The translations under genes and the position numbers were made by a program. Under the pieces are notes generated by a model. That model saw only the letters and a program-made list of their open reading frames with translations. It did not search any database and had not been told where the DNA came from. Shown here piece after piece: positions 1,871 through 49,262 of a stretch of 54,457 nt of DNA. Source of the stretch: a virus; IMG/VR virus record IMGVR_UViG_3300030294_000047, positions 1 through 54,457 of that record, one strand, 5' to 3'. The stretch's first letter is position 1, and each line of letters begins with the position of its first letter.

Positions 1871-2245
1871 TTATGCCATTTCCCAAAAAGGAGCTTTCTC
1901 TTGACCGCCCAATGGAGCCCCGCCGGGTTTGCGTCTGGTAGAGTCCGGTCCATTGACATCATCCAAGATACAGCCATCAGGTAGAAACTCTAGAGCGCAA
2001 TACAGATCCTGAGCAGGGGTCTGTCCATTCAACCTATGCTTACCACGCTGGATGGTCAGATATGCTCGACCATTGACGTACTCGATGTGAATGAAGATCT
2101 CAATGTCGACTTCGTTATCAACTGTCTTACACTTATCGTAATAACCCTTGCCAGGCAATTGGGTCACGAATGCATCGCATCCTTCACGCGTGAGCATCTT
2201 CGCATCGGTAGAAAGTTGATGTGGGGTAATTAAAGTAATTCTTCT
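1871..2245 (-). CDS. DnaB-like helicase, exon 2 (C-terminal 124 residues)
   Basis: This is the 3' exon of the gene interrupted by the intron at 2246-2612. Read without needing its own start codon, it begins RRITLITPHQLSTDAK and continues into AFVTQLPGKGYYDKC. These correspond to the H3 region (with a conserved His-Gln) and H4 region of RecA-fold replicative helicases. An ATG at 2197 gives a 108-residue frame, but that would start in the middle of the conserved region and drop ITPHQ, so it is not the true start. Joined to exon 1 it gives a 510-residue protein. The exon is followed at once by the 1364-1870 gene. Confidence 0.85.
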   Translation of the reverse strand, partial: RRITLITPHQLSTDAKMLTREGCDAFVTQLPGKGYYDKCKTVDNEVDIEIFIHIEYVNGRAYLTIQRGKHRLNGQTPAQDLYCALEFLPDGCILDDVNGPDSTRRKPGGAPLGGQEKAPFWEMA

Positions 2246-2612
2246 CTTACTGTCCAGTATGTTCGCTACACATACCCGGTGCGATTCCTGGCACCCGCCT
2301 GTACTCTCATACAGGAACAGACTATATCTTCATCCTCCTGAAAACCAGGTAGGAGCTCTTCGTTTGGAGCCCGCTTGGGCTCTACTCGCATTTCAGCGAT
2401 AGTCGTTGGCCACACTCCATGCCTTTGCAGGTTTAGGAGCTTCGGTGCTAAAGGAGTCCTTAGGACTCACGGTTGCCCATTGTAACAACCGATCCGTTTT
2501 CAAACCTTCATAGCTCACTTTCGCGACTATTGTGGTGGATCAGTTTAGGGTTTTCCAGCAATTAGAAGAGTTTCGTTAGAACATTACTGTTCTAAAGCCC
2601 TTGAATAAATTA
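2246..2612 (-). ncRNA. Group I self-splicing intron in the helicase gene
   Basis: On the minus strand this 367-nt stretch carries the ordered core elements of a group I intron. These are a P-like element AATTGCTGGAAA (2563-2552), a Q-like element AATGGGCAACC (2481-2471), a P7 5' strand GACTAT (2404-2399), and the hallmark AAGATATAGTCT with P7 3' strand ATAGTC (2325-2320). The 5' exon ends ...AATCCT and its last U can form the usual U-G wobble with GGG in a guide sequence ~16 nt into the intron. Taking the intron to end in G at 2246 restores the frame as NP-RR-ITLITPH. There is no room for a homing endonuclease. The exact 3' boundary is inferred from the frame and the terminal G. Confidence 0.9.
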
Positions 2613-3770
2613 AGGATTCGTGAAGTTACGCATGCGGCGATACATGTCACGGATATCTGTGCCCGTCGGGCCTTCTGTACAGCCGATGGTCGGCACCTGA
2701 GCCAGATAGTCCAGCATCACTGCATGGACTTCATAACCCAGTGCTTCCAGACGCAGGATCTCATTGCAGATGTCGCGATAGCCCCATTGAGATGGGTCCA
2801 CACGCATCATCCGGAATTCGTATCCATTGGACTCCATGGACGTCTTGACATAAGCCGCGCGCGCGTCCTTATCCTCCTCCATCACCCAGCCAGACGCTGA
2901 ACCATATTCGTTTTGTTTGATGGATCTGTACAGATAATCCACGTTCATGTCGAGACTGTCTTCGAAGCTGATGCGCAGCATCATGGGCTTCTTAGTAGGA
3001 TCGAGCATGTATGGTTTATTGTACGTCAGCATCTGACGGAAGATGGATAGGGAGAAACCCGTCTTGTAGTTGTGCTGCAGAGCACCAATGACTACCTCGT
3101 CCCCGCGACGGAAACCTCCCCGCAACATCCGGTTGACACCTTGCCAGCCTGTTCGAAGAATGCTTTCTCCCGACTCCATCTTTTCGATGACATCAAACTG
3201 CGTCGTGATGGAATCGAGATCGTTAGAATCAAGGCTGCTAACAATAGCAGGGTCAACGTTTGTTTCCGCATTTGCTTGGTATGGTTCTATTGAGCTATAG
3301 AGCTCAGCTGCAAAGTGACGAATGTTTTCAATCTTATCACGTTCAAAGCTGAGTTTATAGGCTGATTTTCGGACTAGCTCACTGAAGTTGCGTTCCCTGT
3401 TGTATTCATTGAGCTGCTGGACGATCTTGAGACAGCGTTCCTTGTAGTACAGAGGTTCTTGATCTGCGATGATGCCTCGTTCAATCGCAGAATAGAGTTC
3501 GTTATCGCCCAGCGTATCCAGACGCAGGCGTTGCAGCAATTCGTTAGCCTCGTGCTTATAGCGCACACCTTCAGTAGCCATCCAAAGGCCAGTCTGCCTC
3601 AAACTGCCGGTGACTTTCGCTGTGGTGTTGGTAGCTGAGTCAACTTCAGGCAATTTTATGTCTGACAGAACTTCTCTTGCAAGACTACGAAAGTTTTCGT
3701 TATCTTCGTCAAGCTGACTGCACGAGAATAGCAGCGTGATGCAGTTGACCAACAAATGTTTCTCATTCAT
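2613..3770 (-). CDS. DnaB-like replicative helicase, exon 1 (N-terminal 386 residues)
   Basis: A RecA-fold helicase that should unwind the phage DNA at the fork. Residues 1-200 form a helical N-terminal part. The ATPase core follows: a P-loop at ~229-237 reading GALQHNYKT (Tyr in place of the usual Gly before Lys), a probable catalytic Glu at ~270 (LRISFED), and Walker B at ~352-355 (VMLDYL). The frame ends RRMRNFTNP and the next codon is TAA, the first bases of the intron, so only spliced RNA makes full-length protein. The chosen ATG at 3770 has AGAG upstream. A TTG at 3854 would add 28 residues with no good ribosome binding site. The upstream gap to 3967 is divergent and must hold promoters, but none is clear. 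Confidence 0.88.
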
Positions 3771-47375: not shown

Positions 47376-48299
47376 ATGAAAGAACCAAAAGCTCTGAGCA
47401 TCTATGTTGACATCGATGCACTACTTGACTTTCGCATTGCCACCATCGCCAGCATTTCCGAAGAAGCCGCTGTTCGTATCCTCAAGAATGGATACCACGA
47501 ACGTATCACGGATGTGTTCGACGGCATAGACGAGTCTCAATACCACGACCTCTATAAAAGGCGTGGTATTGAGACTGTCGGTCAATCGAGAATGACTTCG
47601 ATGGTGTTTATCCTGAAGTCTTTCATTGCTGAGATAGCCAATGAGAGTATCAACGGGATGGGAGTGCGAGCAAAGCTTACGATCAATACCTACCCTGTCG
47701 AGTTCGATGAGGAGGTTCAGATCGCTTATGCTGGAGCCATGAACTACTGGCTCGGCGACGAGGTCGATATTCAGTTTGTGAGTCATTCTCCTGAGGAGTT
47801 CGATCACGACAAGCTGATTGAGTACGTCGCAGTGGTCAAGTACGAGTACGGTGAGTGGCTCAACAATGTCATTCCTGACTTGATCACCAAGCCCTGTCGC
47901 AACACCATTTTGATAGTGCCTTCGATCTTCTTCGAGAAAAAGCTCTCTGTAGAGGAATGGAAAGAAGAATCCAAGAAATCCTTCAATCCATTCGAAGCAC
48001 TGCAACAGCAACTGATGCTTTTGATTCAGCTCAACGTGGTCGATACCAAGTTCTACTCCATCATCAGGCCTGAAGATCTGACCTGGTTGGACGATGGAGC
48101 TGCGCAGAAGGTGAGAGCTGCTCTGAATGGGGAGATGACTAATCCTCATCCGCAATCGCAGGACGAGTCTCCGAAGCCTCCTTCTCCGTCGGAAAGAAGT
48201 CCTGAGAATCAAGAACATCCGCGTGAAACTGAGCTTCCCCAGGAACCACATCAGGATCAGGAAATTCCTCCGGAAGAACCGGAATTTCTCGCTCTATAG
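47376..48299 (+). CDS. Unknown protein with a Pro/Glu-rich tail, 307 aa
   Basis: GAGG precedes the ATG. The first ~250 residues look folded, with alternating strands and helices (SIYVDIDALLDFRIATIAS, KLTINTYPVEFDEEVQIAYAG). The last ~55 residues are a low-complexity Pro/Glu/Ser tail (SPKPPSPSERSPENQEHPRE). That tail is encoded antisense to the C-terminal part of the minus-strand gene at 48139, a 161-base overlap. No family is recognised. It follows the RNAP fragment by 16 bases, in one operon. Confidence 0.75.
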   Translation: MKEPKALSIYVDIDALLDFRIATIASISEEAAVRILKNGYHERITDVFDGIDESQYHDLYKRRGIETVGQSRMTSMVFILKSFIAEIANESINGMGVRAKLTINTYPVEFDEEVQIAYAGAMNYWLGDEVDIQFVSHSPEEFDHDKLIEYVAVVKYEYGEWLNNVIPDLITKPCRNTILIVPSIFFEKKLSVEEWKEESKKSFNPFEALQQQLMLLIQLNVVDTKFYSIIRPEDLTWLDDGAAQKVRAALNGEMTNPHPQSQDESPKPPSPSERSPENQEHPRETELPQEPHQDQEIPPEEPEFLAL

Positions 48300-48666
48300 G
48301 AGCAATGGCTCTGCGAGCTGCTGCGAGAACCGGGTCTTTAAGAAGCTTGGCAATCATGGCAGCAGCTTGAACGCCAGCATCCCCGGCTTTCTTGTCGGCC
48401 TTGATACGCATGTTGCCCAGAGCCGCTCTATCCATATCACCCAGGGCTTGCAGAAAGAATGATCTGTCAACCTTGTCATCACTGACCTTACCGTCTTTAT
48501 TGATGAGACTATTGACAAATTGACGACGCAGGCCTTGGGTATATTTCAGAACTTCTTGATCCTCATCCTGAACATTCTGAGATTCTTCAGGTTTGACTTC
48601 TGCATCCAGAACTTCAGCAGTTGGGAGCTCTTGAGGCTCATCTGCCGGGAAAACTTCGACTGTCAT
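48139..48666 (-). CDS. Unknown acidic protein, 175 aa, overlapping the 47376 gene antisense
   Basis: ATG at 48666 (MTVEVFPADEP) has GGAG upstream. The N-terminal ~55 residues are acidic and disordered. The middle is a helical folded part (DRSFFLQALGDMDRAALGNMRIKADKKAGDAGVQAAAMIAKLL), and the C-terminus is acidic and Pro-rich. Its last 161 bases run antisense to the plus-strand 47376 gene. Both frames look real because each has a good ribosome binding site and a folded N-terminal part. The middle segment resembles small helical DNA-packaging proteins, but this is not enough for a call. Confidence 0.65.
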   Translation of the reverse strand: MTVEVFPADEPQELPTAEVLDAEVKPEESQNVQDEDQEVLKYTQGLRRQFVNSLINKDGKVSDDKVDRSFFLQALGDMDRAALGNMRIKADKKAGDAGVQAAAMIAKLLKDPVLAAARRAIAPIEREIPVLPEEFPDPDVVPGEAQFHADVLDSQDFFPTEKEASETRPAIADED

Positions 48667-48695
48667 GATTGACTCCAATTGTATGCTCTAAGTTT

Positions 48696-48714
48696 TTTCA
48701 AACACTCATTACTT
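48696..48714 (+). repeat. Copy 2 of the 19-base intergenic repeat
   Basis: TTTCAAACACTCATTACTT matches 7004-7022 at 18 of 19 bases. It lies in the 65-base divergent gap between the 48139 and 48732 genes, 17 bases before the GTG start at 48732. A promoter or regulator-site role is plausible. Confidence 0.45.
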
Positions 48715-48731
48715 TACAGTGGAGGTAAAGA

Positions 48732-49262
48732 GTGAAAGGATTTTTCTATGCTGTTAGACGGTTTCTTTATCGCGCAAACTTGCGCTCGATACTGAGACGC
48801 GTCAGCTCACATGATATATCGCTCACATCCCAGAGAGATTTCGAAATCCTGATGGATTCTGCTCTGGAAATCTGTCGTGCGATAGATCCACAATACATAA
48901 TTGAAAAGGAGGACTTTCTCAAATCTCAATACGAATTTGAAGCAGTCGCATCATCCATAGATTCTGTGATCAATCATCTGAATGACTTCAGGCACTTGAT
49001 GAGGAAAGGAGATGCTGTAAATACTGATCGGTATCGCGAGACACAGCATACCGACCTGATAAAGTTCTTTGTGTCACATAAAGGTGCTTACCTGGATGTT
49101 ACAGTTCAGTGGACAGCCCTACAAAAAGCTATTTTTCAATTCATTGAAGAATACCAAAAACTCAGTGATAAAGCACTTGAGAGCTATTATCACAGACAAG
49201 GCTTGCGTTTGGTAGACCATCTTTGCCAGACGTTGACAAGGATTGCCTATTTCCTCGTATAG
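48732..49262 (+). CDS. Unknown helical protein, 176 aa
   Basis: GTG start with GAGG upstream. The N-terminal ~25 residues are very basic (KGFFYAVRRFLYRANLRSILRR), perhaps binding nucleic acid or a membrane surface. The remainder is amphipathic helix (FEAVASSIDSVINHLNDFRHLM, WTALQKAIFQFIEEYQKL). No known domain is found. First gene of a plus-strand run that leads to the second NADAR-like gene. Confidence 0.65.
   Translation: MKGFFYAVRRFLYRANLRSILRRVSSHDISLTSQRDFEILMDSALEICRAIDPQYIIEKEDFLKSQYEFEAVASSIDSVINHLNDFRHLMRKGDAVNTDRYRETQHTDLIKFFVSHKGAYLDVTVQWTALQKAIFQFIEEYQKLSDKALESYYHRQGLRLVDHLCQTLTRIAYFLV

Follow-up and report, generated by a model that had tools for sequence, protein, structure and literature searches.

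A probably active group I intron without an open reading frame, splitting a helicase gene in a phiKZ-like jumbo phage at a codon boundary that bears introns in two other phages

An intron endonuclease has been demonstrated to serve phiKZ-like phages as a weapon in competition, and the intron in the vRNAP gene of PhiPA3 encodes gp210, an HNH nicking endonuclease that has been tested experimentally (PMC11620839). RNA polymerase genes of Escherichia phage EC001, Xanthomonas phage LucasX, and PhiPA3 have introns of this kind, either within them or next to them. The intron described here lies in a 54,457-nt stretch of viral DNA (IMG/VR record IMGVR_UViG_3300030294_000047), which was analysed as a whole and is called the window. 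It resembles the PhiPA3 vRNAP intron in being of group I, in occupying a conserved site in an important gene of a phiKZ-like phage, and in its P3 and P7, but it is found in another gene and does not carry an HNH nicking endonuclease. The RNA polymerase introns of EC001 and LucasX have related cores (69.4 and 54.7 bits with the Rfam family RF00028) and are among the best DNA matches to the window intron, although their gene and site are different. In the open literature outside the PhiPA3 genome paper, no account of an intron in a phiKZ-type helicase was found. Of interest is the shared, apparently repeatedly used site in the helicase gene rather than the type of element, the group I splicing that it would undergo being ordinary.

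The interrupted gene consists of the following parts.

2613..3770, minus strand: helicase exon 1, 386 codons from the ATG at 3770 to ...RNFTNP, supported by the profile match of the joined exons and by uninterrupted homologues
2246..2612, minus strand: group I intron of 367 nt without an ORF, supported by RF00028, its junction set by homologues
1871..2245, minus strand: helicase exon 2, 124 codons plus stop, beginning RRITLITPHQ..., supported by tblastn and by alignment with FLC9, LucasX, and others

When joined, the exons encode a protein of 510 amino acids that matches PF20307 (divergent DnaB-like ATPase) with 412 bits and phrog_3213 (DnaB-like replicative helicase) with 533 bits, and the interrupted gene is that of a divergent DnaB-like helicase of the phiKZ gp118 type. 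The adjacent capsid gene matches PhiKZ_MCP with 596 bits, and the gene order capsid, structural protein, helicase is common to the window, Noxifer, 201phi2-1, and PhiPA3. A search of the 93-kb contig holding the locus, a fragment of a genome, did not find the nuclear-shell protein ChmA, which has homologues in FLC9 (29%) and LucasX (30%). Relatives of the helicase occur in 276 phage records, and the closest of them, from Burkholderia phage FLC9 (50%), is uninterrupted and reads NFTNPRKITFITPHQLST where the window has NFTN-P-RRITLITPHQLST.

Exon 1 ends with ...CGT AAC TTC ACG AAT CCT (last base 2613), the intron opens with TAA (2612) and ends with ...CAGTAAG, and exon 2 restarts with AGA AGA ATT ACT at 2245. 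With the intron taken out, the protein shows no gap at the junction when aligned to five uninterrupted homologues, both flanking exons being well conserved, so that the boundaries 2246-2612 and the in-frame resumption at RRITLITPHQ, as proposed in the initial annotation, are right. The insertion point is situated between P386 and R387, both invariant in an alignment of seven helicases, after DYL of the Walker B region and before ITPHQ (H3), which is also where it had been placed at the outset. A helicase of this type is expected to be essential in a phage, and the gene would therefore have to be expressed whole; as the intron length of 367 is not divisible by 3, unspliced RNA cannot be read through. 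An intron of 370 nt with exon 1 ending at AAT was also considered and dropped, since homologues have one further residue (P).

The initial annotation had recognised a group I intron from core-like elements and had proposed a covariance search of the minus strand, and such a search bears it out: run over the whole window, Rfam cmscan yields a single match, to RF00028 at 2298-2623 (minus strand), with 59.3 bits and an E value of 1.4e-12, above the gathering cut-off of 50 bits and aligned over the whole model (1-253). No second Rfam family exceeds its cut-off in the window. The folding energy of the intron is below that of 100/100 dinucleotide shuffles (z -3.67), and its elements are as follows.

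2594..2618, minus strand: P1, exon AATCCT (2618-2613) opposite the internal guide AAGGGCTTT (2602-2594), read from the sequence
2565..2570, minus strand: P3 5' strand CTCTTC, partner of GAAGAG at 2361-2356, by sequence pairing that is kept in relatives
2450..2470, minus strand: hairpin GTGAGTCCTAAGGACTCCTTT of about 21 nt at the J5/4-P4 3' strand, placed to within a few bases, present in the window only and absent from eleven related introns
2399..2404, minus strand: P7 5' strand GACTAT (R element), by sequence pairing
2356..2361, minus strand: P3 3' strand GAAGAG, by sequence pairing
2320..2325, minus strand: P7 3' strand ATAGTC (S element AAGATATAGTCT), by sequence pairing and the RF00028 alignment
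2257..2315, minus strand: P9, P9.1, and P9.2 hairpins, read from the sequence, P9 lying within the RF00028 alignment

A U.G pair is present at the 5' splice site, with ...CCU opposite the guide AAGGG and one mismatch on the exon side of P1, and the register of P1 is the same in the PhiPA3 helicase intron, where CCU, followed across the splice site by UAAA, pairs with UUUAGGG. The last intron base, G 2246, is the terminal G that group I introns require. All six positions of P3 (CTCTTC/GAAGAG) are paired, and the helix covaries, eight related introns keeping the pairing with other bases. P7, the guanosine-site helix (GACTA/TAGTC), is likewise paired at 6/6 positions (2404-2399 with 2325-2320) and keeps its pairing in relatives too, and GACTAT is indeed the partner strand, as had been suggested. 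The hairpins between P7 and P3 (2398-2367) are presumably similar to P7.1/P7.2 of subgroup IA. A second IMG/VR contig, which is maybe not an independent sample, contains the initial 7770 nt of the window, including the intron, at 100% identity.

In the EC001 intron, P5, J5/4, and P4 read GGG-UAA-UCAGCA-GCGAAG, and the counterpart in the window reads GGG-CAA-CC-[GUGAGUCCUAAGGACUCCUUU]-AGCA-CCGAAG, both flanks supporting a hairpin at or in the 3' strand of P4. When the P4-P5 segment is folded freely, a contiguous P4 (-37.7 kcal/mol) comes out ahead of P5 CCC/GGG plus the inserted hairpin (-33.8 kcal/mol, 3.9 apart), and the exact point of insertion is therefore uncertain. The hairpin is not repeated elsewhere in the window.

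The identical codon boundary of the helicase bears an intron in three phages, namely the window phage, PhiPA3, and a phage-like contig from Paraburkholderia sp. BCC1886. In PhiPA3 (HQ630627), the helicase is annotated as two pieces, gp134 and gp131, on either side of an interruption at 116555-118344 (1790 nt, RF00028 83.1 bits); exon 1 ends with ...AACTATACCACTCCT, followed by TAAATT, and the interruption ends with ...CATCG, followed by AGAGGTATC. Gene, codon boundary, and TAA start are as in the window, but the PhiPA3 intron contains, in its P1 loop, a 492-codon frame with HNH_3 and NUMOD1 matches, is devoid of the P4 hairpin, and has a core that tends to fall with other PhiPA3 introns and not with the window intron. 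The BCC1886 intron, in a 286-kb contig of the GTDB collection (NZ_CAAJGK010000011.1), measures 380 nt (3207-3586 of our locus L123; RF00028 80.7 bits), and its junctions read ...TTCATGTCGGCT before TAAAG... and ...CAACAGG before AAGAAGATC. With a longest frame of 65 codons it is ORF-less like the window intron and sits at the same boundary of the same gene, but it differs in length and has no extra hairpin. It is because of this hairpin in the P5/P4 region that the window intron scores lower with RF00028 than those of PhiPA3 and BCC1886. The helicase is uninterrupted in 79/79 other IMG/VR homologues, in seven of the eight GTDB homologues checked, and, among the matches listed, in other phage records as well; in 270 of 272 phage records one place covers at least 80% of the query, although a short intron is possible in a record outside those listed. 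The helicase of the window and gp134/gp131 of PhiPA3 should each be annotated as one spliced gene.

Some observations on other phages and contigs deserve mention. The PhiPA3 “putative endonuclease” gp133 (HQ630627, 116563-116865; 1391-1693 of locus L010) is a 101-codon frame running over the ribozyme core (...GEDIVW...), and the real HNH frame (116868-118343) is without annotation. Serratia phage 2050HW (MF285618, 34068-34500) also has a two-piece helicase annotation, but there 433 nt correspond to about 139 residues, which suits a frameshift and not an intron. In assemblies of Burkholderiaceae isolates (GTDB Caballeronia and Paraburkholderia; loci L117, L118, and L123), contigs of 144-286 kb encode the jumbo-phage helicase, and jumbo phages with such a helicase may thus be carried by, or have been co-sequenced with, these bacteria.

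The endonuclease of its own by which a homing intron is recognised is missing from the window intron, as the initial annotation had stated: there is no ORF inside, and the frames contained entirely in it on its own strand do not exceed 49 aa. Five queries (PhiPA3-type endonuclease, HNH_3, HNH, GIY-YIG, and LAGLIDADG_1) found no endonuclease in the window or in its 93-kb contig, a genome fragment; a NUMOD1 search matched no control and was set aside as evidence. Close relatives of the PhiPA3 helicase-intron endonuclease are limited in IMG/VR to PhiPA3 itself, and the intron DNA has no match in plasmids. The BCC1886 contig has two HNH_3 frames at a distance from its helicase intron, and next to one of the two is another intron-like match. 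This match (NZ_CAAJGK010000011.1, 135510-136569; loci L126 and L127), which at 42.6 bits is below the RF00028 threshold and adjoins the HNH_3 frame, is probably a further intron with its own endonuclease.

With RNA family membership, junction, conserved core pairs, and same-site introns in two other phages established, the sequence makes it very probable that the helicase gene of this phiKZ-like jumbo phage is interrupted by an active group I intron without an ORF. The helicase transcript would fold into a group I ribozyme, a guanosine would attack after exon ...CCU, the freed exon U would attack after the terminal intron G (2246), and the ligated mRNA would encode an intact helicase. That the helicase frame is broken through faulty sequencing or assembly has practically no probability left. 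Unbroken relatives, which had been named as a possible sign of a frameshift error, do exist, yet the interruption is a 367-nt insert with a significant RF00028 match, it is identical in the second contig, and the protein is restored exactly once it is taken out; such an error is thereby refuted.

It is also improbable that the intron is a splicing-dead relic, with a ribozyme core decayed at the P4-region hairpin and a helicase that is made as two fragments or not made from this gene. The presence of a J5/4-P4 hairpin of about 21 nt that relatives do not have, and the endonuclease not found in the window and the 93-kb contig, would be consistent with decay, but the P3 and P7 helices are preserved, conservation is good in both exons, and exon 2 has no start codon ahead of the H3 motif. 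Its first listed ATG, at 2197, is past H3, so that a separate fragment would be without this motif. Still less credence can be given to regulated splicing, raised in the initial annotation merely as something that could occur, in which the supply of helicase would be set by folding of the intron, perhaps via the extra hairpin. One point, the unique hairpin in the core, speaks for it, whereas the window revealed no conserved sensor, all other Rfam families being below cut-off, and both other same-site introns are without the hairpin. That the hairpin is an acquired control element making helicase splicing conditional during infection is just as hard to credit.

Phylogenetic trees of the cores, comprising 11-12 introns, are poorly resolved, being based on a short alignment and having low branch support. 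In these trees, a single clade of the three same-site introns is rejected (p-AU 0.001), a clade of the window and BCC1886 introns (p-AU 0.41) is neither shown nor rejected, and a clade of the window and PhiPA3 helicase introns (p-AU 0.16) is neither rejected nor supported. For the PhiPA3 helicase intron, the core falls preferentially with that of the PhiPA3 vRNAP intron. Because an origin of the three introns from a single clade is rejected, the comparison of cores suggests, with moderate confidence, that one conserved site has been colonised repeatedly by introns, although core exchange between introns would give a similar tree pattern. On this reading the site, with its invariant Pro-Arg codons just before H3, would be a conserved homing target into which related introns have moved repeatedly, and the copy in the window would either have lost its endonuclease or have been moved by an endonuclease in trans. 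Three jumbo phages that are distant from one another have introns at one codon boundary of a phiKZ-type helicase, one with an endonuclease frame and two without; the cores do not form one clade, and the site is a natural test of the re-invasion of a conserved target by introns and of their persistence without an endonuclease. In Aeromonas phage PS1 (MN032614), two RF00028 matches at 48240-48595 and 48610-48924 (loci L015 and L020) lie about 15 nt apart on the same strand and are possibly tandem or nested introns.
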